A DNA stretch of 64,000 bases, from positions 62,001 to 126,000 of the forward strand of contig JAGNBF010000002.1 of the NCBI GenBank assembly GCA_018004935.1, read 5' to 3'. The notes below the pieces were generated by a model. It saw only the letters and a program-made list of their open reading frames with translations, was not told the origin of the DNA and ran no database searches. A program made the position numbers and the translations under genes. Positions 3,873-59,733 of this stretch are shown here, in pieces. Origin of the DNA: Chloroflexota bacterium. Lineage in GTDB: Bacteria; Chloroflexota; Anaerolineae; Promineifilales; Promineifilaceae. How positions within the stretch are numbered: the first letter of the stretch is position 1; each line of letters starts with the position of its first letter.

Positions 3873-4198
3873 GGTTTGGCTTCACTTTCAGGCATTGTTT
3901 TGTAACTATGTACCTTAAGATAATGATTTGGAGTAGGGGCTGGCCTTGTGCCTGCCCCCTCAGCAGAGGGCAACCACAAGGGTTACTCCTACAGCCAAAC
4001 TCTTTTTCGGCGTGGTTCAAAAGTCGGCAAACGGTGCTTAACACTTTGTAGGGCGATTTGGTAAATCGCCCACGAGACGATTTACCAAATCGTCCTACAA
4101 ATTTGTAAAGCTGACCTGAACCATGCCTCTTTTTCTTAAAAGCTATACTAACCCTCTCGAGGGCTGAGCTTGCCTCAGCCCGTTTGCCTTCGACAAGC
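3873..4198. repeat. Intergenic cluster of three palindromic repeat families
   Basis: No gene is seen here. In order: a family C element (about 3912-4000, 'GGGGCTGGCCTTGTGCCTGCC' type arms pairing with 'GGGCAACCACAAGGGTTAC'), a family B element (4048-4099, GTAGGGCGATTTGGTAAATCGCCC pairing and repeating as GACGATTTACCAAATCGTCCTAC) and a family A element (about 4148-4218, CTTCGACAAGCTCAGGC pairing with GAGGGCTGAGCTTG). Parts of the same C+B arrangement recur at 47.64-47.98 kb. The A element runs into the 3' end of the giant sensor gene and supplies its stop codon at 4199-4201. Confidence 0.8.
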
Positions 4199-7100
4199 TC
4201 AGGCAACAGATTCAGTAGTGGCATCACTTTTGCCATTTGTAGGGGTATCGGGCGCGGCCGCGATTTCCACCCAGGCATATTTCGCCTTTAGCGCCTGGCC
4301 CAGTTCATTCACGGCCGTTTGTAAGGCCCCTTCTAGCGTATGGGTCCCTTGAATCTTCTGCGTAATCTCATTCAGTAAACGTTCCCGCTGGGCACGACGG
4401 CGGGTTATCTCATATTGTTGGGCATTCTGTATGGCCACCCCAATTGAGGAAGCCAGGGTCAAGAGTAACCGCTGATCTGCCTCATTAAACATCCGCTTGC
4501 CCACATCATTTTGCACGGCAATCACCCCTACGACTTCATCCCCAACGATCATGGGCACACCCAGATAGGCTTGCACATTCTTGGGTCCCGAGGCACCCAT
4601 GGCTAACATCTGCGCCTCTGTATCCTGCGTGACCAAAATTGATTGGCGCGACTTAATGATACGCCCGGTAACCCCTGGCCCATCCAGATCACGCGGAGCC
4701 ATATCCAAGAATTTGCGTACACCTTCATCCGTTTCCATAAAATAGGGAAAGGTAATGCGCCGCTTTTCGGGTTCATGGAGGGCCACATAGACACCATCGG
4801 CCTGGAAGGTGCGCTCCAACTGCGCCCCGACAGCCCGCACCAGCCCAGAAAGACTCAATTGGCTAGACGCAATCTGGTTCATTTCGTTGATGGTAGCTAA
4901 TTCAGCCGCCCGTTCCTGAGTTTGGGCGAAAAGACGGGCATTTTCTAGAGCCACAGCCACATGGCTGGCTATACCAATCAGCAGGGTCAGGTCGCCGTCA
5001 TCATACGCATTGGTCTGGTAGCTTTGTACCGACATGGCCCCCATAACCTGTGTACCACTAAATAGGGGCACATAAATGACAGACGCCGGAAATGCTGTTG
5101 TATCGCCTACGGTAGGATCTACCTCGCGGCTTTGTTCTAGTTGTGCCGAGGAAAGATTTACATAAACCGGTTGACCGGTATCAATGACCTGGAATATATA
5201 ACTTTGCGGCGTGCGGGCTAAAGGTTCTTGTTTATAACGTTGACCGTTGTCGTACAGAATGGGGTAAGAAATAATATCCTTATCCGGATCATACAAGCCA
5301 ATAAGAAAGGCATCGGCGACCATAACACGCTGTACCTGATGATAAACCGATTCCATCACCTGCTCTGGGTCAAGCTGGCGAGCCACGGTTTCCGCCACCT
5401 GGTTGATCACCCCCAACTCGGCGGCACGCGCCTGGGATTGTTCGTACAGAAGACGGTTTTCGACGATAGTAGATCCCTGGGTACGGAGCGCTTCATACAA
5501 ACGGCGCTCCCCCAGAGTGAACTGGTGGGGTTTATCCCAGGTGATATAAGCCACCCCTAACCAACGGCTCTGGGCGGTCAAAGGTATCCAGATAGTGGCT
5601 CGTGCAGATAACTGATGTCCCAGGAGTTTGATGGCCTCGTCCACCCGGCTATCAGTGCTCATGTCTTCCAAAAAAAGAACGTGGTTAGAATCGGTGAGCC
5701 ATAAATGGGCCGAGGGGAAATCGGGAACATAGAAACGGTTCCCTATGGGAATGGCGGAGTAACCATCGCGTTGCCACGCGGCCGCGACCACACCCCATTC
5801 TGGTTGCCCCGCATCATCCAGTTCAAACGTAAACAACCCCGTGGCATTCGCCTCGCGCTCCATCGCCGGTTGCGTTAAAGCCAACAAAGCCTCTGGTAAC
5901 GTTCGGGCCGCATTCAATTGTGTACTTACTTCATAAAGCGTACGAGCCTCAGCCAACGCCTGCTCCGTTTGGTCAAACAGGCGGGCATTATCTACCGCAA
6001 TGGCCGCCTGATAAACGATTGTTTCTACCAAACGCGTCTGCTCGGTGGTCAGCACCCGCCCTGCCTCCAAAATATCAATACCGATTGTCCCAATCAGTTC
6101 ATTACCAACAATCATGGGGAAGATGGTGATTGACTGCACATTACGGGTTTTTAACCCTTCATGAATAGGGGCGGTAAGGGGGCTTGTCTGGGGATCCGCA
6201 ATCACCAACGGCTTACGGGTACGCATAACTTCCTGAGTAGAAAGATTCCCCGCTACTGGAATGACAAAGCCAATCGCACTTTCGGAAACGTTGGGATCAT
6301 ACAGTTCTGCCACAACCGTGAGGTGGGTATGTTCGGCATTGAACAAAGCAATACCCGTCTGCTCCACACGGGCAACCCGGGCCAATTCGGTCGCCACAAT
6401 CTGCATACTCTGGCGGATATCCAATGATGAAGCCACGGAAGAAACGACCCGGTTAATAATGGACAGCTCTTCAGCGCGAGCCTGCGTCTGGGTTAGCAGG
6501 TATACGTTGCTGATGGCGATAGCCATCTGGCTGGCAACGGCTACGAGCAGTTCTAGATGGCTTTCATTAAACAGATAAGTTTCCTCTTCGGTTTGTATGG
6601 CAATAACACCTAACGCATCGGCCCCGACGATCATGGGTACACCAATATAGGCGTGGGGAAGCCGCCCAATAATCTCAAACCCTTTTTCACGAGCAATTTC
6701 TTCTATGTTCTCGTGCATAAAGAGAGGCTGACGGCTACGTAACAGGTATTCGGTGATGCCATTACCTGTTTCACGGGTGAAATGGCTGTAAGGTTCATTA
6801 TTTACGAAGACACGGATCTCGATTTCATTTCGTTCTGCATGGTTAAAGGCGATGTAATAATCATCAGCCGGAACCAGTTGCGGCAAATAGGTATGTAGAT
6901 GTTGGACTATTTCTTCAATATTGTTGGCCCCGGTTAAGGCTCGCCCCATTTCATTGAGCACATTTAGTTCCGTACTACGCCGCCGGGCTTCCGCCAGGGC
7001 ACGCTCAGTCTGCTCATTAAGACGCAGATTATCCAGATGGGTGCTGAGGCCATGCGAAACCGCCATGAGAATGGCTTGCGATTCGTCGTCATCTATATCC

Positions 7101-12487: not shown

Positions 12488-15400
12488 TTATTGTTTTTGG
12501 GTCAATTCCACAAAAGTACGGCGAGCTTTCAAAGCGACACCTAACTCCTGGATAGCTGTTTGCAACGCGCCTTCCACAGTGGTCGCGTTTTGAATTTTCT
12601 GGCTGATAAGGTTCACCTTCGCCTCGCGCTCGGCCCGTTTTTGCGTCTGTGCAAACAAGCGAGCGTTTTGGATGGCCACAGCCACATTCGACGCAATGGT
12701 GCGAAGTAAATTCATATCGCCTTCCGTAAAGCGCCCTTCTCGCTCTGCATCTTGAACGGTCAGCACACCTATCACCTGATCCCCAACTACCATTGGCACC
12801 CCCAGAAACGATTTAGACAACTTTTGTGTATTTGTGGGTATAGCTCCCATTGTCATTAAACGGTGTTCTGTATCCTGGTTTACCAGAAGTGCCTGCCGAT
12901 TTTTAATGATGTAGGTGCTAATACCTTCCCCAAAGGGAAATGAAGGTTCATCTATAAATATCTGATCATTGTCTAGCAGGTAAGGAATGCTAATGATCTG
13001 GTGTTCTTGATCATATAGGGCAACATAGGCACCATTGGCATTAAAAGCCCGACTCAGATTGTGCACCACAGCGGCCAAAATTTTAGGCAAATCTACTTCG
13101 GTGGCTAAGGCCTGTCCAATTTCATTGACTACGCCTAACTCGCTGACACGTCGCTCCGCTTCTTCAGTCAGGCGCAGGTTTTCTAAATGTGCGCCTAACC
13201 CTTGAGAAACGGCCTGCAAAATGGTGCTGAACTCTTCTTCGGGCATTTGCACATCGGCAGCCGTTAACTGGCCCACTTTTTCCCCGCGTAAAACAATGGG
13301 TTGGGTAAAAGTTCGGCCCGATTCGGCAATCAGGTGTCCATTTTCAGGCAGGACAGCCAGTTTATCGTCGGCAAACATGAAGCCAATGCGGCCGCGTTCT
13401 GTTTCTGCCACGTAGGTCTGCCAACCTTCACGTGTTAACCGGCGCGTCAACGAGTCCAATTCCTGTAAGGTCTTAGTAGATTGCTCATTGGCACGCGCAT
13501 TTTCCAACACAATAGCCACCTGAGATGCCAGAATAGTTTGAATGCGGACATCCTCATCGGAAAAATAACCTGCCTGATCCGACTGCACATCTAACACACC
13601 CACAACTTTCCCTGTAGCTATCAGCGGAACAGCTAATTCCGAACGAGTGTCAGGAAGTAAAGGATTAGGCAAAAAATCCGGGGCCTGGGTGACATCATGA
13701 ATATTTACGGCCTGGCGGGTTCGTGCGGCACGTGCCACAAGTGATTGCTCCGAGTGGGCCAGGAGGGTATGTCCCTGAACGACCATTCTACGTCCCGCTT
13801 CGTCCGCACCCGCCGCCAAGACCAATTGTTCTCCCGTCTTATCTAACAGATAAATATGGGCATGGTAAAGACCAAAATTGACCTTTGCCTGATCTACCAC
13901 CGTCTGCAACATTTCTTGAGGACGATGAATGGCGGCAATCGTGGTAGCAACTTGCGTAATCGTTTCTAGTTCAGCCGCCCGTTTGGTTAAAGCATCTTCC
14001 GCATGTCGGCGGGCCGTAATATCACGATGAGTAGCCATGAAACCCAGACGATTACCGCTGGCATCCAGAATAGATGTATTCATGGCTTCAATAGGAATAA
14101 GGCGACCGTTCTTATGTTTGTTGGTGAGTTCACCCGCTACAACCTGATCATGTAACAGTGCATCCCAGAATTGCACATATTGTTCCTGCTTTATAAGACC
14201 AGATTTGATAATGCGGGGAGTTTGGCCTATGGCTTCAGCGGCAGAGTAGCCATAGGTTTTTTCAAAGGCCGGGTTGACGTATTCAATGAGGCCATCCAAA
14301 TTGGTCATAAAAACCGCATCGGTGGAGCGCTCAAGAGCCAGTTGGAATTTACGCAGATTTGTTTCAGCCTTTTTTCGGTCAGTGATATCTTGCAAGGCCC
14401 CTTTAACCCCGGTGGGCTGGCCGGTTTGATCTGTGGTGACAACATAGCGGAATAAAAAGTAACGACTATCACCATCACTTCCTAATAGCCGATATTCCAG
14501 ATCCCCCCTCAATGAGTCCTGACCAATTGTGGCAATGTCTTGAAGCAATCGTTGGCGATCATCTGGGTGAACGAAACGTTCGACAGCCGTCAGGAGCGGT
14601 ATTTCATTCCCCCCGACGGCTTCGGGCGTTGTGCCTAATAGGGTAAAAAACAGGTTATTAAAGTGAATGGTTTGGCTCTGAAGCTTAAATTCGTAACTGG
14701 CTAACTGGGCCAGGCGGGAGGCTTCGTCTAGTTCAATGAGGATGGATTGGGCACGGGCCTGTTCTTGTTGCAGTTCCTGGGTTCGTTCGACCACGCGTTG
14801 TTCCAGTGTGCCGATGAAACCACGCAATTGGCTAGTCATGGTATTGAAGGCCAGCCCCAATGTGCCGATTTCGTCCTGGCTGGTAACGGTAGCTTGTTGA
14901 GATAAATCACCCTGACTAACAGCGCGGGCAATGTGGGCCAATTCGCCGATGGGTTGGGTAATCTGCTGGGCCACAATACTGCCAAGCGCGGCCGCGATGA
15001 TAATAACAACAATGGTAGCCCCACTGGCAATGTAGACATTGCTAAGAGCCAGCGCCAGTGCTTCCGAACGTGGCTGTTCGGCAATGATGACAAAGCTCTG
15101 TTCGTTGAAAGCCAACGTTTGGCGGGCCAGAGCAACATCCTCACCCCCCAAACCGATTGTGAATGAATCTTCTTCCGGTGGGGTTAATTCCGTTCCCTGT
15201 AACACCACAGAAGGATTGGGATGCGCCACAACCCGGTTATCCGCGTCGAGCATATAAACGATTCCCGTGCCAATCACATTCGCCTGGGCCATAATGTCCC
15301 ACACCGGTTTGAAGCGGAAATTAGACACCAAAACACCAGAGAATTGACCCGTCCGCAAATTGCTGAGCGGAATAGAAATGGTCATGAAAGGTTCGCCTGT

Positions 15401-15856
15401 GTTTTGATTAATACTGATAGAACTAAAAAAGGTGTCCCCTGTGGTGCGGGGGGTTTCAAACTCATCCTGTCCTACCCAGTTGATTAAATCATCGGGAGCC
15501 ACTACAGAAAGGCGGGAAAGGTGAATTTCTTCCTGGCCTGCGGCATTGATCAGAATGAGTTGGTCATAATCATGTTGCAAGGCCAATAGATTGGTAAGAA
15601 GGGTGGCCTGTTCTTCAGGCGGCAGGGCGGCAAAATTGCGTAAATCGGCCAACGAACGTAATTCATTTTCACGAGCACGAATGAAATTTTCTACTTCCAC
15701 GCCGACGCGTTGAACTACCTGGCTTTGGGCATCCAAGACATAAGGAACCTGAGTGGTAAAAGAGCGATAGGTCAGGATAAACCCCACAAAGACGAGGGGA
15801 ACAATAGCCAGGCTAACAAAGAAGATTGTGACTCGGGTACGGAGGCTATTGCGCAT
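12488..15856 (-). CDS. dCache-HAMP-PAS-GAF transmembrane sensor without kinase
   Basis: 1,122 residues. Starts at ATG 15856 with AAAGGAGAG 6 bases upstream. One membrane helix (8-30), an extracellular dCache-type sensor (about 35-285), a second helix (about 290-310), a HAMP linker ('ITQPIGELAHIARAVSQGDL') and a coiled coil. Then PAS (about 390-500), PAS (about 510-630, 'HRDITARRHAE'), GAF (about 645-800), a C-terminal half-GAF (about 815-905, 'LTREGWQTYVAE'), a full GAF (about 915-1075) and the terminal motif ('VNLISQKIQNATTVEGALQ'). The HAMP plus coiled coil would normally drive a histidine kinase or methyl-accepting domain, which is missing. It is next to the substrate-binding lipoprotein gene, 103 bp upstream, suggesting shared ligand sensing (inference). 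Confidence 0.9.
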   Translation of the reverse strand: MRNSLRTRVTIFFVSLAIVPLVFVGFILTYRSFTTQVPYVLDAQSQVVQRVGVEVENFIRARENELRSLADLRNFAALPPEEQATLLTNLLALQHDYDQLILINAAGQEEIHLSRLSVVAPDDLINWVGQDEFETPRTTGDTFFSSISINQNTGEPFMTISIPLSNLRTGQFSGVLVSNFRFKPVWDIMAQANVIGTGIVYMLDADNRVVAHPNPSVVLQGTELTPPEEDSFTIGLGGEDVALARQTLAFNEQSFVIIAEQPRSEALALALSNVYIASGATIVVIIIAAALGSIVAQQITQPIGELAHIARAVSQGDLSQQATVTSQDEIGTLGLAFNTMTSQLRGFIGTLEQRVVERTQELQQEQARAQSILIELDEASRLAQLASYEFKLQSQTIHFNNLFFTLLGTTPEAVGGNEIPLLTAVERFVHPDDRQRLLQDIATIGQDSLRGDLEYRLLGSDGDSRYFLFRYVVTTDQTGQPTGVKGALQDITDRKKAETNLRKFQLALERSTDAVFMTNLDGLIEYVNPAFEKTYGYSAAEAIGQTPRIIKSGLIKQEQYVQFWDALLHDQVVAGELTNKHKNGRLIPIEAMNTSILDASGNRLGFMATHRDITARRHAEDALTKRAAELETITQVATTIAAIHRPQEMLQTVVDQAKVNFGLYHAHIYLLDKTGEQLVLAAGADEAGRRMVVQGHTLLAHSEQSLVARAARTRQAVNIHDVTQAPDFLPNPLLPDTRSELAVPLIATGKVVGVLDVQSDQAGYFSDEDVRIQTILASQVAIVLENARANEQSTKTLQELDSLTRRLTREGWQTYVAETERGRIGFMFADDKLAVLPENGHLIAESGRTFTQPIVLRGEKVGQLTAADVQMPEEEFSTILQAVSQGLGAHLENLRLTEEAERRVSELGVVNEIGQALATEVDLPKILAAVVHNLSRAFNANGAYVALYDQEHQIISIPYLLDNDQIFIDEPSFPFGEGISTYIIKNRQALLVNQDTEHRLMTMGAIPTNTQKLSKSFLGVPMVVGDQVIGVLTVQDAEREGRFTEGDMNLLRTIASNVAVAIQNARLFAQTQKRAEREAKVNLISQKIQNATTVEGALQTAIQELGVALKARRTFVELTQKQ

Positions 15857-15959: not shown

Positions 15960-16985
15960 TTAACGCAGAATGGTATCAGCGGCCTGGATGACACTTTCGG
16001 GCACTTCTAAACCAATGGCCTCGGCCGTTTGCAGGTTGATGGTAAGGAAAAATTCCGGGGCCTCGACGGGTAAGGTGGCAGGATCAGTGCCGTTGAGAAT
16101 TTGCCCGGCCAACCGGGCGGCCTGGGCACTCATGGCTTCCAGGTCAGAGGAATAAAACATGAGGACGCCGACTTCCTCGCCTTGTGTCGAAAGGGGGATA
16201 TTACGTTCCAGGGCTAGAGCCAGGGCGGTATCAGCCGCCCCCCCAAAATAGACACGTTCGGAGAAGAGGAGCATGGCATCAATGTCTTCGGGCGCTTCGG
16301 TAAAAGCGGCCGTAGCTTCTTCGGGGGTACGAATTTCTACTAAGACGAGTTCGATATCTAGTTTCGCGGCCGCGTCCTTCACCGCCACTAATTTAGCCGC
16401 CGTAGCTGGTTCATCTGGGTTATGCGGCACATAAACCCGGTGAATATTAGGTGACATTTTGACCAGCCATTCCAAACGCAATCCTTCATTACCGGAATCT
16501 TTTGCCGCGGAAGCGATACCGGTTACATGACCGCCCGGGCGAACCCAGTCTTCCACCAAACCGGCGGCAATGGGGTCCGTAACGGCGACAAAAACAACGG
16601 GTGTGCCTGAGTCTGCGGCCGCGGTCTGGGCCGACTGACACGCCGTGGTACTGATGCAATAGATGAGATTGACCTCAGCCGCCAATAATTCTTGCGCCGC
16701 CTTATCCATCGCCTCCGGCGAAAAATCACCCGAAGACATATCGGCCTGGATATAGTTCACATTATCCCCTTCCACAAAACCCGCCTGAGCCAAACCATCC
16801 TTAAATCCGGCAACTGGCCCCCCCACAGAGGGATCATCAGCACTACTATCACCCCCAAAGGGGTTCAGAACCCCTACCGTAAACACATCAGGTTCAGCCG
16901 CACTGCAAGCCGCCAAAACCAAACCCAACACCATAAGCAATAAAAACAGGCTATAACGATTTGCATTAAAAGAACTGCGTTTCAT
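15960..16985 (-). CDS. ABC-type substrate-binding lipoprotein (ABC_sub_bind family)
   Basis: 341 residues from ATG 16985. An in-frame ATG at 16991 directly abuts the TAGGAG Shine-Dalgarno sequence with no spacing, so the second ATG, 6 bases further on, is preferred. The N-terminus is a lipoprotein signal with lipobox LAAC and Cys27. The mature part has the two-lobed periplasmic-binding fold of the ABC_sub_bind (TrpX-like) family, e.g. 'FTVGVLNPFGG', 'VVFVAVTDPIAAGLVEDW' and 'NIPLSTQGEEVGVLMFYSSD'. These proteins usually bind amino acids or other small molecules for ABC importers, but no permease or ATPase is adjacent. It lies between sensor genes in the same direction and may deliver its ligand to them (inference). 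Confidence 0.88.
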   Translation of the reverse strand: MKRSSFNANRYSLFLLLMVLGLVLAACSAAEPDVFTVGVLNPFGGDSSADDPSVGGPVAGFKDGLAQAGFVEGDNVNYIQADMSSGDFSPEAMDKAAQELLAAEVNLIYCISTTACQSAQTAAADSGTPVVFVAVTDPIAAGLVEDWVRPGGHVTGIASAAKDSGNEGLRLEWLVKMSPNIHRVYVPHNPDEPATAAKLVAVKDAAAKLDIELVLVEIRTPEEATAAFTEAPEDIDAMLLFSERVYFGGAADTALALALERNIPLSTQGEEVGVLMFYSSDLEAMSAQAARLAGQILNGTDPATLPVEAPEFFLTINLQTAEAIGLEVPESVIQAADTILR

Positions 16986-17239
16986 TGACATCTCCTACGA
17001 AAATGTAGGGCGATTTGGTAAATCGCCCGGTGGACGATTTACCAAATCGTCCTACAGATTTTCATCCCTCTTGGTGTGCCCAAGGCACATGGGGAACTCC
17101 TCTAAAAAACGTAATGACTAAATCTGTTACCGGGGCTTGTCGAAGGTAATGCGGGGTTTCGACAAGCTCAGCCCTGGAGAACGTTAGTCGTGACAAAAAA
17201 CAAGAATTTTGTCCTATGACCTGCATCGCCCGGGATTTC
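16986..17239. repeat. Family B and family A palindromes between signalling genes
   Basis: No gene is seen. A family B element occupies 17004-17055 (GGCGATTTGGTAAATCGCC and its partner). A linker at about 17066-17102 ('CTTGGTGTGCCCAAGGCACA') recurs after the B element at about 46128-46162. A family A element occupies about 17111-17193, with outer arms AATGACTAA and TTAGTCGT and inner GGGCTTGTCGAAGG and TTTCGACAAGCTCAGCCC. The B element is only about 10 bases upstream of the lipoprotein Shine-Dalgarno sequence. Confidence 0.8.
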
Positions 17240-26703: not shown

Positions 26704-26950
26704 GTAAGCGTTTAGTCATAACTATTCATCCGCCAGACCCGCCCGGTCGTAATGCGTTTTGAAAATCAAAATCGGTATAAACAGTACACCCCACAGGAAG
26801 GTACACGCCCTTTTTTACCGGTTTTGATGGTAAAAACTGATAACGACCGGGCTATGGTTACAAAGGCCGCTGGCCTGGGCTTTTAGCCCGCAAAGCTCCG
26901 TAGGTTTAGCCCGGCGGTTTGACCGCTGGGCGGGGTAACTGAACGCTTAC
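26704..26950. mobile_element. MITE-like element (247 bp) inserted in a family D palindrome
   Basis: Terminal inverted repeats GTAAGCGTTTAGT (left) and its near complement ACTGAACGCTTAC (right). The 9 bases CCGAAAACC occur directly on both sides (26695-26703 and 26951-26959). Removing the element and one copy restores the ordinary family D palindrome (AGACCTGACARGTTTCCG / AAAACCTGTCAGGTCT) seen intact at 32.8 and 42.7 kb. No open frame long enough for a transposase is inside, so it would need a transposase supplied from elsewhere. A shortened copy in opposite orientation lies at 59565-59696. Confidence 0.8.
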
Positions 26951-42718: not shown

Positions 42719-43410
42719 GGGCCTGTAAAAGATTAAGTTCCGTCAAGACCTGACAGGTTTCCGAAAACCTGTCAGATCTAAACCGGGAAGTTATATTTTT
42801 ACGAACCCTCAGTAACCGTCTAAGAATAATTTCCCGTTTTGCTGTGGTCGGTCTCCTCACCCCACCACTCCCAGCGAATAAGCTATTTATTTTTCATTTC
42901 TAAGGCATCTTTAACAAAGAGATTGTGAAAAACCTGACCGGTTTCTGAAAACCTCAGCCATTCTCCATTTAACGGGTCTTCGGGATTTTGTGGGGTACGG
43001 GCAACCCTTGTGGTTGCCCCACACTGGGCGAAGGGTGACGGCGGTAAGGGTAGGTACGGGCAACCCTTGTGATTGCCCCACCCCTAACCCCGCCCTCCAG
43101 GGGCGGGGAACTTTTTCTCGTATCATTTTTCGCGAGCGTCTGCCCGCGAAAAATGATACGAATGGGGTAGTACCCCTTCCCGGCGGGAAGGGGCGCTACC
43201 ATCCAGGTTGCGGATTGAGGCGAAGAAAGGTTTCCCCCTGTCCACTGGGATCGCAGGGGATAGGGCTTTCGTGGTAGCCATTCTATGCCGGGATTATTGC
43301 GGAAAAACGCAAAAACCATTGGCCGCCAAAAGCACACCCGAAAAATGGCCCAAGCCGTAGAACAGCCTTTCAGGCTGTTCACCCTCTAACATAAAACTGG
43401 TGCGCTAAAT
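42714..43410. repeat. Non-coding stretch of family D, E, C and F palindromes
   Basis: No gene is seen over about 690 bp. In order: a complete family D copy (42714-42812, reverse complement of 32755-32856), a family E copy (about 42795-42895, core TGCTGTGGTCGGTCTCCTCA), a decayed D hairpin (about 42925-42960), a family C copy (about 42976-43080) and a family F copy (about 43076-43200) with an inner hairpin TCGTATCATTTTTCGCG / CGCGAAAAATGATACGA. The remainder to 43410 has no clear feature. Confidence 0.8.
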
Positions 43411-45083: not shown

Positions 45084-46048
45084 GGCAATATACTCCTTTT
45101 CGGATACGAAAGACGATACCATTCAGCCATCGTCATCAATTGACTGATAAAATCTACGGACGGCTCATATCCCAATTCCCGTTGGGCGGCGGAAATGTCT
45201 GCCAGGGTGTGTTTGACATCTCCGACACGCGGCGGACGAAGAACCAGATTGAGTTTGCGGCCGCTAAGCTCCTCTAGCATATCCCGACATTCTAACAATG
45301 AATATGAACGTCCCTGCGCAATATTAAAGGCTTCACCCACAAATCTCCGTTCGCGAGTAACGGCTAACATATTGGCCTGGACAACATTGTCCACATAACA
45401 AAAGTCTCGTGTTTGGGTGCCATCCCCTTCAAGAAAGGGTTCATAGGTGGGATCAACATAGAGATGGTACAGCCAGGCACTTAATACGGTGGAGTACGCT
45501 CCCCCAAAAAGGGCATGAGGACCAAATACATTAAAATAACGCAGACTGACGACATCAAGTCCATACAGGTTAGCAAACAGGCGACACCACTCCTCCGCCT
45601 GATATTTTTCCAGGGCATAGGGTGACTGGGGCTGACCGGGGTAATTTTCGGGTGTGGGAAATTGATCGACCCCGCCGTAAATCGAACTACTACTGGTATT
45701 TACCAACCGGGTCTTACCCACTAATTCGGCCTTGACCAACCCTTCCAGCAGGCTAATCGTGCCTAACAGATTGGCCTCAGCAGAGGCGAAAGGCTGTTCT
45801 ACCGAGTAACTGACTCGGGGAATAGCCGCCAGATGAAAAACAACGTCTGGCTGAAAATCGCGCAGGAGGGCGACCACACGCTCTTTATCCTGAACTTTAC
45901 CTCGTTCATAACGAAAGGTGGCAATACTATTTTCTGCTAACCCGGACGAAAGATCGTCCAGGCCCATAACTTCATACCCTTGAGTCTGTAAGGTTTGGCA
46001 CAGATTGTAGCCAATGAAACCGTTACTGCCGGTAACGAAAGCTTTCAT
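45080..46048 (-). CDS. NAD-dependent sugar epimerase/dehydratase (extended SDR)
   Basis: 322 residues, ATG preceded by TAGGAG. NAD motif GSNGFIG (7-13), catalytic Tyr144-x3-Lys148 in 'SPYALEKYQAEEWC' and Ser triad in 'NTSSSSIYGG', as in UDP-glucose 4-epimerase-like enzymes. It probably epimerises an NDP-sugar for the same glycan as the dehydrogenase whose start overlaps its stop by 4 bp. The exact sugar is unknown. A pair of family B repeats lies directly upstream. Confidence 0.92.
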   Translation of the reverse strand: MKAFVTGSNGFIGYNLCQTLQTQGYEVMGLDDLSSGLAENSIATFRYERGKVQDKERVVALLRDFQPDVVFHLAAIPRVSYSVEQPFASAEANLLGTISLLEGLVKAELVGKTRLVNTSSSSIYGGVDQFPTPENYPGQPQSPYALEKYQAEEWCRLFANLYGLDVVSLRYFNVFGPHALFGGAYSTVLSAWLYHLYVDPTYEPFLEGDGTQTRDFCYVDNVVQANMLAVTRERRFVGEAFNIAQGRSYSLLECRDMLEELSGRKLNLVLRPPRVGDVKHTLADISAAQRELGYEPSVDFISQLMTMAEWYRLSYPKRSILP

Positions 46049-46063
46049 AAATCTCCTACGAAA

Positions 46064-46223
46064 ATGTAGGGCGATTTTGTAAATCGCCCAGTGGACGATT
46101 TAAAAAATCGTCCTACAGATTTTTATCCCTCTTGGTGTGCCAAATGCACATGGGGAACTCCTACGAAAATGTAGGGCGATTTGGCAAATCGCCCAGTGGA
46201 CGATTTAAAAAATCGTCCTACAA
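46064..46223. repeat. Tandem pair of family B palindromes
   Basis: Two copies at 46064-46117 and 46170-46223, each GTAGGGCGATTTNGNAAATC-GCCC followed by GTGGACGATTTAAAAAATCG-TCCTAC. They are separated by the linker CTTGGTGTGCCAAATGCACA also seen at 17066. In both, the second half carries the same TTAAAAAATC change, so the pair arose by duplication. They precede the epimerase gene by about 15 bases. Confidence 0.85.
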
Positions 46224-46284
46224 ATCTTCATTCCATTTGGTGAGCGCCCCGTTCATATTAAGGTACCAGTACAACTTTTCGGTT

Positions 46285-47613
46285 TTACGAGGCATTACGC
46301 TCCTGTGCTGACATGAGGTTGGCAACACGACGGCCAATTTCCACGGCGAAATTGGTGCCCCGATCCCAGGGGTAAACCTGGCTCATACTGGCGAAATAAA
46401 GCCCATGAATGGGTGTTTGCAGGGTGGGAATGTTAGCGGAATGGTTGACCAAAGGCACAGGCTGGGCATACGGGGTGCGGAAAAGCCAGCTTGCCCGTAT
46501 CCAATCCTGAGTAAAAGCGGGGTTGAGTTTCGGCAACGCGGCCGCGAACTTCTGCACCAATTCTTCTTTACTCAACTGAAAATATTCATGTTCCGGCAAC
46601 ACATAATCCCCACAGTATACCAGGTAGTCTCCCCCATAATGCTCCCGGCTGACAAAGTTCGTATGCTCCACCAGCGCCAGGAAAGGAAACTCATTCTGGC
46701 TCTTATCGGCTGATGTTGCCGGAATATTAAGCCAATAGGTACGTCCATCGGGCATCAATGGTTGTTTCAGGGCCAATGTCACGACGACTGCCCCAATATG
46801 TTTCAGGTTGAGAAGTTGTTGCAAATACGTAGAGGGTAAATCGGGTGCCATGCCCCTTAACTGATGGGGCGAAAGCGTCACCAACACCTGATCATAAAGC
46901 TGTGTCTGACCATCTACCTGAAGTTGCAGACGATGATCCGGCAAAGGAGAGACGTTTTGCACCGGGCTGTTTAGATGAATCTTCGCCCCTTTTGTTTTAA
47001 TCACCTGCGTCAAATGATCAACCATTGCCTGGAAACCACCCTCAAAATACCCCAAACGGAAGGTGCGTGCCTTAAGCCGCGCCCACATCCAGGCCATGTT
47101 CACATCCTGATAATACGGCCCAAATTTGTTGATGAGAAGCGGCCGCCAGGTAGCTTCATATACCTGCTTACCAAACCATCGGCGCATCCACGCATCCGCC
47201 GTGTGTTGCTCAAGAGTGCGCCAGGCATTACCAAAACGCAAAAAAGCCCCCACTGCCCCAAAACGAATGGTATTCAAGAAACCAAACCCGGGGTATTTAA
47301 ACCAGGCCGGAATAGAATCGAACGGGTAAATTTGTTTTTGATAATAAATGGAGGTAATCGGGCGAGGAAAAAACAGTTTATCCCGAAAACCAATCTCTTC
47401 TAGTAACCCAATCATCGCCTGATCACTTTGGAAGAGGTGATGATAATATTTTTCTAACGGCCAATCCCACTGATCAGCCTTAAAACCGGTCGCCAGTCCA
47501 CCTGTCTGGTCGCTGGCTTCATACAGGGTGACATGATGACCGGCTTGTAACAAATCATAGGCCGCCGACATTCCGGCCAGCCCTGCACCCACAATTGCAA
47601 TATTTTTTACCAT
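46285..47613 (-). CDS. FAD-dependent oxidoreductase (amine oxidase/protoporphyrinogen oxidase-like)
   Basis: 442 residues from ATG 47613. N-terminal FAD dinucleotide motif 'IAIVGAGLAGMSAAYDLL' with the acidic 'TLYEASDQTGG', and a C-terminal FAD motif 'HGLYFASMSQVYPWDRGTN'. The family includes protoporphyrinogen oxidase, UDP-galactopyranose mutase and desaturase-like enzymes. In bacterial glycan clusters such proteins are common beside sugar epimerases, which suggests a role in surface polysaccharide or lipid-linked sugar metabolism (inference). It shares strand with the sugar genes downstream and the flippase-like gene upstream. Substrate unknown. Confidence 0.85.
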   Translation of the reverse strand: MVKNIAIVGAGLAGMSAAYDLLQAGHHVTLYEASDQTGGLATGFKADQWDWPLEKYYHHLFQSDQAMIGLLEEIGFRDKLFFPRPITSIYYQKQIYPFDSIPAWFKYPGFGFLNTIRFGAVGAFLRFGNAWRTLEQHTADAWMRRWFGKQVYEATWRPLLINKFGPYYQDVNMAWMWARLKARTFRLGYFEGGFQAMVDHLTQVIKTKGAKIHLNSPVQNVSPLPDHRLQLQVDGQTQLYDQVLVTLSPHQLRGMAPDLPSTYLQQLLNLKHIGAVVVTLALKQPLMPDGRTYWLNIPATSADKSQNEFPFLALVEHTNFVSREHYGGDYLVYCGDYVLPEHEYFQLSKEELVQKFAAALPKLNPAFTQDWIRASWLFRTPYAQPVPLVNHSANIPTLQTPIHGLYFASMSQVYPWDRGTNFAVEIGRRVANLMSAQERNAS

Positions 47614-47639: not shown

Positions 47640-47985
47640 GACCTCAAGATAATGATTGGGGTAGGGATTGGCCTTGTGCCCTTTTTCTCAAAAGAGGGCA
47701 ACTCCAAGGATTACCCCTAAAGCCAAAATCATTTTCTTAAGCATGGTTCAGGTCAGCTTTACAAATAGGTAGGACGATTGGGTAAATTGTCCAGTGGGCG
47801 ATTTACCAAAGGGTGTGTTTCATTTCAGTTGAGAGGAAGAAAATAATGAATCGGTGAATTTGTGAATTGTTGACTGATTAACGAGGGAAGCGTCTACCGC
47901 TTCATTAACCATTCAACCATTCAACTGTTCAACAATTAATTATTCAACTCATTTGAAACGCACCCTTTACCAAATCGCCCTACAT
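47640..47985. repeat. Family C and B palindromes, the B copy split by an insertion
   Basis: A family C copy (about 47640-47745) is followed by a family B copy whose left half is 47768-47810 and right half 47966-47985. The 155 bp between are a separate MITE-like element (listed on its own). The order C then B, with a shared junction, mirrors 3912-4105. The remaining bases to 48063 have no clear feature. Confidence 0.8.
47811..47965. mobile_element. MITE-like element (155 bp) inserted in a family B palindrome
   Basis: Ends GGGTGTGTTTCATTTCAGTTGA and TCAACTCATTTGAAACGCACCC are imperfect inverted repeats of 22 bp. The 9 bases TTTACCAAA flank it on both sides (47802-47810 and 47966-47974). Removing it restores an ordinary family B palindrome. 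The inside is AT-rich and roughly self-complementary over its whole length, with no open frame of note. Confidence 0.8.
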
Positions 47986-48063
47986 ATTATTAAGCATCAT
48001 GTGCCGACTTTTGAACTATGCCCTCTTTTTGAACAGCCTCATAATCAAGGCGAAATAAAGGTC

Positions 48064-49068
48064 TCAGGTTGAGGCCTCATTTTCAGCCAGCCGGACGGCC
48101 TGGCCAAAATCGCCCCAGCCCAACCCTTCGCGCACCATATAAACAGCGCCTAATAAGGTAATGGGCAACCAGAGGGCGGCATGGAGTACCAGGGTATAGG
48201 CAGTCGCTACGGGAGCGGCTACCCCATAAAGGGTCAGGACATTGATGCCCGGTGTGTCGAATGTGCCGACGTAACCCGGCGCAGAAGGAATGGTTGTCAT
48301 CAGGTTCACGACACCGTTCATCAACATAAGGGCAAAGAAGGAAACCTCGAACGGGAAGGCATGCATCACAAACCAATATTTGAGCGTTTCAAGAAGCCAG
48401 ATGAGCACTGAGGTGAAGAAAATCATGAGGACGTTGCGAAAACTACGCAGTGAGTCCAGGCCGGTCAGGAACCGGGCAATGAATCCCAACAAAGGTTCCT
48501 GAAAACGGTGCGGGAGGAGACGAATAGTGAACCATTGGGCAAGTTGTTGGGCCAGCCGCGGCCGCGCCGCCATGCCAAAAAACACAATCAGTGCGCCAAA
48601 AAAAGCTATACTGGCGATAATGACCAGGTTTTGCACCGCCGCACTAGGGATTGGGGTCAAGGGTAAGGCTACAAATACAAATACCAGCATCACTAACCCA
48701 TCAAATACCCGCTCCACAATAACCGTTGCCAGACTGGCACTGATAGAGACCTGTTCTCGCCGGTACAACACGTAGGAGCGCAACAACTCACCGGCTCGAA
48801 ACGGATAAACGTTATTGCCCATATAACCAATAACCACGACGGGGAATAAGCGACCAACAGGGATATGTTTTAGCGGCCGCAACATATAATCCCAGCGCCA
48901 TGTCCGCACCCACACCCCCGCAAAATAGGCCAACACTCCCGGCAACAACCACCCATAGTTCGCATTTTGGATACCTTCCCAGACATCTGTCAGTTTTAGT
49001 TCGCGTAAGGCCAGCCACATGAAGAACACACTAATGCCGATGCCGACCCAAAATTGCCATTTTTTCAA
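48064..49068 (-). CDS. YbhN/AglD-type integral membrane protein (UPF0104)
   Basis: 334 residues; the start is a TTG at 49068 with AAGGA 8 bases upstream, giving 'MKKWQFWVGIGISV'. About eight membrane helices. Family features: 'WVRTWRWDYMLRPL', 'GYMGNNVYPFRAGELLRSY' and 'ERVFDGLVMLVFV' near the middle, and 'SAPGYVGTFDTPG' near the end. The family is related to the flippase domain of lysylphosphatidylglycerol synthase and is often found with glycan genes. It may move a lipid-linked substrate across the membrane (inference). Confidence 0.88.
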   Translation of the reverse strand: MKKWQFWVGIGISVFFMWLALRELKLTDVWEGIQNANYGWLLPGVLAYFAGVWVRTWRWDYMLRPLKHIPVGRLFPVVVIGYMGNNVYPFRAGELLRSYVLYRREQVSISASLATVIVERVFDGLVMLVFVFVALPLTPIPSAAVQNLVIIASIAFFGALIVFFGMAARPRLAQQLAQWFTIRLLPHRFQEPLLGFIARFLTGLDSLRSFRNVLMIFFTSVLIWLLETLKYWFVMHAFPFEVSFFALMLMNGVVNLMTTIPSAPGYVGTFDTPGINVLTLYGVAAPVATAYTLVLHAALWLPITLLGAVYMVREGLGWGDFGQAVRLAENEAST

Positions 49069-59161: not shown

Positions 59162-59733
59162 TACCAAAAATGGAGGGGCTGGTCTTATGCCTGCCCAATC
59201 TCGAGCAACCACAAGGGTTTGCCCCTTACCCCGTGAAATTCCATAGACCCAAAATGTTCTTCTCTGATGATGATCGTAATTTGTGACTATACTGTCAAAG
59301 GGCATAATCTGACATTTTTCGCCCTCTCGCCGTCTCCCTTTATCGTCGTGTTGGGTTTATCCAAGGCCACCCTCACCCCTAACCCCGCCCCCAGGGGCGG
59401 GGAACTATTTTCGGCGCGGTTTGGCGAGCGTCCGCTCGCCAAACCGCGCCGGTAGGTTTCTCCCCCCTTCCCCCTGGGATCGAAGGGGGATGGGTCTTCA
59501 GTCCAAACCTACCAATCTGTTGCCGCTAACAAAATGTCACTTTATAACCGTGGTAAGTATATACGTAAGCGTTCAGTTATCCCGCCTGGTGGTCAAACCA
59601 CCGGGCTAAACATACCAGGCCCTGCGGGCGAAAACCCCAGGCCAGCGGCCTTTATAACCATAGCCCGGTCGTTTTACGTCCGGGCAGATCTGGCGACCGT
59701 AAATCGTAAATCGTAAATCCCACCCCCCTCCCC
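59162..59733. repeat. Non-coding region with family C, F and shortened MITE
   Basis: A family C copy (about 59140-59250, beginning inside the aminotransferase gene), a family F copy (about 59365-59500; hairpin GGCGCGGTTTGGCGAGCG and CGCTCGCCAAACCGCGCC), a shortened MITE (59565-59696) and three tandem CGTAAAT units (about 59697-59718). No gene is seen before ATG 59734. Confidence 0.8.
59565..59696. mobile_element. Shortened copy of the 26704-26950 MITE, opposite orientation
   Basis: Bases 59565-59675 match the reverse complement of the right half of the 247-bp element, starting with the same GTAAGCGTTCAGTTA end. A further stretch (TTACGTCCGGGCAGATCTGG) matches an inner part of the left half. 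The middle of about 100 bp and the left terminal repeat are missing, so it is a deletion derivative. Confidence 0.7.

Follow-up and report, generated by a model that had tools for sequence, protein, structure and literature searches.

A short mobile element that lies exactly in the centre of an intergenic palindrome raises the question of whether it was directed there by the shape of its target or by the base sequence. The window analysed here, by which we mean the whole stretch of 64,000 nucleotides, belongs to the assembly G000 (7.98 Mb). The original prediction placed in it a 155-bp MITE with a 9-bp target duplication, and gave GGGTG(T/C)GTTTCA as the ends of this element. All three statements are correct. 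The element occupies positions 47811-47965 of the plus strand, between two minus-strand genes (46285-47613 and 48064-49068), and the sequence TTTACCAAA is repeated exactly on its left (47802-47810) and on its right (47966-47974). Within positions 47760-47990, the order is GGGCGA, the first TTTACCAAA, the element, which begins with GGGTGTGTTTCATTTCAGTTGA and ends with TCAACTCATTTGAAACGCACCC, the second TTTACCAAA, and TCGCCCTAC. The terminal inverted repeats are 22 bp long and imperfect (left, GGGTGTGTTTCATTTCAGTTGA, 47811-47832; right, TTCAACTCATTTGAAACGCACCC, 47943-47965; both on the plus strand). In addition, the element shows imperfect internal inverted symmetry, and the fold-back of its entire length has a z-score of -4.1. 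A mechanical inverted-repeat search returned arms of 37 nt at 47796-47832 and 47944-47980 that are 81% complementary, the arms of the palindrome being included in this figure. The element carries no transposase gene and is non-coding, with 4 stops in the frame tried, and RNA-family and tRNA searches at the insert site gave no match. It is thus short and non-coding, with terminal inverted repeats, a target duplication and multiple copies, which are the features by which a MITE is recognised.

The target of the insertion is a GTAG-tagged REP palindrome, which the element splits at its centre. When the element is removed, the flanks rejoin as GGGCGATTTACCAAATCGCCC, a repeat that is found at about 700 places in the genome with up to 3 mismatches, as compared to 0 for a reversed control. 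Together with the neighbouring GTAGGACGATTGGGTAAATTGTCC, this repeat constitutes an inverted pair of GTAG-tagged hairpins. On the plus strand, the first half of the pair, consisting of the GTAG tag and the hairpin GGACGATTGGGTAAATTGTCC, is located at 47769-47792. The interrupted second hairpin, as delimited from the window sequence and the inverted-repeat search, comprises the left arm and loop GGGCGATTTACCAAA at 47796-47810 and the right part TTTACCAAATCGCCCTAC at 47966-47983, with the reverse-complement GTAG tag at its end. The first half was assigned to its class by comparison with the described GTAG-REPs, and GTAG repeats have been reported in Chloroflexi (PMC3733652). As in this class, the target repeat is intergenic and has a terminal GTAG tag beside a short stem-loop with a 3-base loop; it occurs in inverted pairs, and its GTAGG[GA]CGATTT... 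hairpins are present in hundreds of copies. It differs from the GTAG-REPs in that study in being the target and not the element, and in that no REP-linked tyrosine transposase was found adjoining it. A genome search for a REP mobiliser (RAYT) gave 1 Y1_Tnp match, with 0 REPs in its 3.2-kb locus.

The 155-bp element is one of many in this genome. BLAST identified 40 strong copies with 84-100% identity, the window copy included, and a search for the end pattern revealed about 101 right ends and about 115 left ends. From the fetched neighbourhoods, at least 76 distinct copies with paired ends were catalogued; 22 of these are 155 bp long, 10 are 243 bp long, and the remainder range from 129 to 559 bp. 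Target duplications of 9 bp flank 56 of the 76 copies (46 exact, 10 with one mismatch), and several of the mismatched duplications seem to reflect recombination between MITE copies. The insertions are at separate loci, as the flanks share 250 bp or more in only one pair. Copies with unpaired ends, which were checked for internal genes, contained ordinary neighbouring sequence only, and no transposase was recognised in them. On contig C92 of G000 (15233-15641; L070), two MITE copies are located side by side, and the duplication TTTGGCAAT of the second abuts the end of the first. On contig C140 (L047, 9961-10210), two occurrences of the element end GGGTGTGTTTCATTGCCTTCG flank a run of Ns at a distance of 227 bp from each other, and this doubling is probably an assembly artefact.

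The exact 22-bp ends of the MITE are also present in related genomes of the same family. In two related Anaerolineae (G015 and G011), the same ends bound 1.7-kb elements that encode an ISKra4-family transposase and represent complete insertion sequences (ISs). MITE-type left and right ends surround the transposase gene at the loci L089/L220 and L092/L219, the transposases of the complete ISs match NF033572 with E-values of 4e-87, 1e-84 and 5e-77, and matches above the cut-off for this family were obtained for L080, L219 and L222. The left end of the window copy is identical to that of L092/L219 at 22 of 22 bp, and its right end matches those of L089, L091 and L092 save for 1-2 variable bases. 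The left and right ends diverge from one another past base 12, and the MITE and the ISs have both versions in common, which strongly argues for descent rather than convergence. GGG ends and a 9-bp duplication are traits of the ISKra4 group. Both were found in the MITE copies, and 9-bp duplications were also observed at the complete ISs L093 (ATTAAATTG) and L222 (ATATGATTT). Because the complete ISs have the same asymmetric ends of 22-23 bp around an ISKra4-family transposase, it appears well supported by sequence comparison that the 155-bp element derives from an ISKra4-family IS and is non-autonomous. It differs from the ISs of this family (NCBIfam NF033572) in its length of 155 bp, the lack of a gene, a host assembly in which no transposase was found, and a strong focus on REP loops. 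The matching transposase could be identified at the family level through the complete relatives, but protein and family searches of G000 (229 contigs, 96.6% complete) revealed no ISKra4 transposase. Contigs of this assembly often terminate inside these repeats, and a true loss of the IS would look the same as an assembly gap or collapse.

Insertion in the centre of an intergenic palindrome, as originally predicted for the window copy, recurs throughout the genome. By a strict REP definition, 43 of the 75 scorable copies are located in a REP and another 7 in half-REPs, with the insertion exactly at the loop. Most copies thus reside in REPs, and not at random sites lacking a preference for palindromes. 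The 15 non-REP insertions with good duplications share the symmetric motif A[WTTRNYAAW]T, in which the bracket denotes the duplicated 9 bp. At the 22 sites with good duplications that fall outside the strict REP class, complementarity amounts to 77% at position 2 from the centre, 91% at position 3 and 68% at position 4, and drops to 50% at position 5 and a mean of about 27% beyond. At non-REP sites, the pairing of arms past the core is therefore at background, which implies that a stem is not required. When a motif was learned from the 15 non-REP insertions only, the REP cores that had been hit scored 10.4-11.6, as compared to 5.1 and 5.4 for the common but unhit REP cores TTTACAAAA and TTTAAAAAA, respectively. 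The flanks of other ISs also fit the motif, namely TTTGCCAAA (L089), ATTGGCAAT (L092) and TTTATCAAA (L091), and the fit is poor at the central bases of the L093 and L222 target sites. For the TTTATCAAA REP loop, the score is 10.7 yet there are 0 insertions, its 11-12 empty copies being too few for a test.

The original prediction explained the position of the element by hairpin-targeted transposition, in which the transposase recognises an extruded or symmetric stem-loop and inserts the element in the loop. This would accord with the majority of copies being exactly at the REP centre, and with one non-REP insertion at the centre of another palindrome, CCTGACAGG. Moreover, when sites are matched by their score for the 9-bp motif alone, the rate of insertion was about 7-9 times higher for REP sites than for the remaining intergenic sites. 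The background for these comparisons consisted of 0.69 Mb of contig stretches chosen irrespective of the element and 1.79 Mb surrounding the copies. Since gene calling relied on a rough criterion of ORF length, the coding and intergenic labels are approximate; REPs within called ORFs were still counted as REPs. Once the flanking A/T are added to the motif, 34 of the 35 high-scoring intergenic 11-mers in the unbiased 0.69 Mb sample are REP loops, and motif and hairpin are therefore inseparable by a score-matched comparison.

The REPs themselves allow a separation. REPs with GRCGA/TCGYC arms have either the loops ACC, GCC and ATC (R-N-Y) or the loops ACA and AAA (non-RNY), and the loops ACC, ACA, ATC and AAA have an equal folding energy of -8.8 kcal/mol on the same arms. 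The filled REPs with these arms comprise 22 with RNY loops versus 0 others, whereas the empty ones comprise 34 versus 27 in the unbiased sample (p=3.8e-5) and 182 versus 90 in the neighbourhoods of the element (p=4e-4), both p-values assuming that the copies are independent. This preference for RNY-loop REPs is predicted by the motif that was learned outside REPs. The comparison should be read with two points in mind: the non-REP set is small, and the REP variants may differ in age, as the non-RNY REPs could be younger than the burst of MITE insertions. A further comparison of exact TTTACCAAA cores suggested equal rates inside and outside REPs, but with 2 background sites and 3 insertions in half-REPs it was set aside. 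Equally stable REP hairpins are thus unhit when a single loop base is changed, the non-REP insertions have no arms past the core, and the second element cited in favour of hairpin targeting shows no palindrome preference. The first two of these observations led us to reject hairpin targeting as the main cue, and we regard it as an improbable explanation. The best reading is that target recognition is sequence-specific and symmetric, and that hairpin shape may contribute but is not needed.

We consider it likely that an ISKra4-derived MITE, moved in trans, chooses the symmetric A[WTTRNYAAW]T sequence, and that this sequence is supplied mainly by REP loops. The trans-acting transposase would originate from a full-length ISKra4 IS that has since been lost or is missing from the assembly. 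It would recognise the 22-23 bp ends and join the element to a target cut with a 9-bp stagger, at a symmetric site approximating A[WTTRNYAAW]T of which the bracketed 9 bp become duplicated. A symmetric multimeric transposase may read this site as duplex DNA. The loop of the very abundant GTAG-REP palindrome CGATTTACCAAATCG is the richest intergenic store of near-perfect sites in this genome, which would explain why most copies land exactly in the REP loop. An unlikely, more elaborate version is that REP loops and transposase influence each other, the RNY-loop REPs serving as safe intergenic landing sites and the TTTACAAAA REPs, which differ by one base, being escapees, with a modest boost from hairpin geometry on top of sequence recognition.

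It is very doubtful that MITE and REP were moved or copied together as a composite repeat, such that a few insertion events were duplicated instead of one target being chosen repeatedly. REPs do lie within longer repeats with shared immediate flanks, and the mismatched duplications of some copies suggest recombination. However, the element points either way with respect to the loop (18 versus 15 copies), the copies differ in REP arms, element length and locus beyond the repeat, and the identical motif is present at non-REP sites. Even less credible is a passive accumulation of near-random insertions with a weak motif, spared by selection in neutral, REP-rich intergenic DNA, since survival alone, even in a genome with repeat-dense intergenic regions, cannot account for an insertion point that is fixed to the base within the REP and restricted to RNY-centred copies.

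The sequence preference proposed here has parallels. In IS903-like target preference, a 9-bp duplication is centred on a preferred palindromic sequence, which is explained by symmetric binding of the transposase. The MITE resembles IS903 in the central position of its 9-bp duplication within a preferred palindrome, and differs from it in transposase family and end sequences. REPs are established targets of ISs, and insertion at the palindrome axis has been described for ISPsy8 and ISRm22 (PMC1525189). Like ISPsy8, ISRm22, ISPpu9 and ISPpu10, the MITE is inserted specifically in REPs at a fixed base. In contrast to the MITE, the REP-targeting ISs in that study are autonomous, their duplications measure 2-6 bp instead of 9 bp (ISPa11 has none), and 100% of their copies are in REPs as compared to about 57-67% for the MITE, which also uses motif-matching sites elsewhere (PMC1525189). 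The targeting of REPs by ISs is therefore already known, and the few mobile elements that land in REP loops are joined here by a MITE of the ISKra4 family from a Chloroflexota genome. In the literature covered by our search, to which most subscription papers did not belong, we found no report on an ISKra4-type MITE or on ISKra4 target choice. The present findings provide a testable target-site motif for this little-studied IS family, and they have a built-in control, since hundreds of hairpins are identical except for the loop. They also illustrate that a base-specific preference can produce an apparent hairpin preference.

The idea of two elements choosing palindrome loops most likely involved, as its other example, the element at 26704-26950. 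This is a separate 247-bp element (GTAAGCGTTTAGTC...AACTGAACGCTTAC) with GTAAGCGTT ends, and its duplication CCGAAAACC is located in a palindrome of the AACCTGTCAGGT and AGACCTGACAGGTTT type. We located 74 candidate copies of it in 2.5 Mb of this genome. The duplication is exact at 33 of them, with a length of 8 bp in 29 cases and 9 bp in 4. No palindromic arms were detected at these copies, the mean being 2.97 arm pairs out of 10 as compared to about 2.5 expected by chance. The claim does not hold for this element, which consequently lends no support to a general palindrome-loop rule.

Lastly, about 25 intergenic stretches of the window (e.g. 3902-4219, 16980-17200, 43053-43388, 46046-46256 and 59279-59695) are saturated with repeats from several families, which are high in copy number and mostly palindromic. 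The stretch at 46046-46256 consists of two adjoining copies of a REP-containing repeat of about 105 bp with the loops TTTTGTAAA and TTTGGCAAA, both of which are free of the MITE. Within 1.79 Mb of this genome, many of the intergenic repeats of the window have tens to hundreds of matches.
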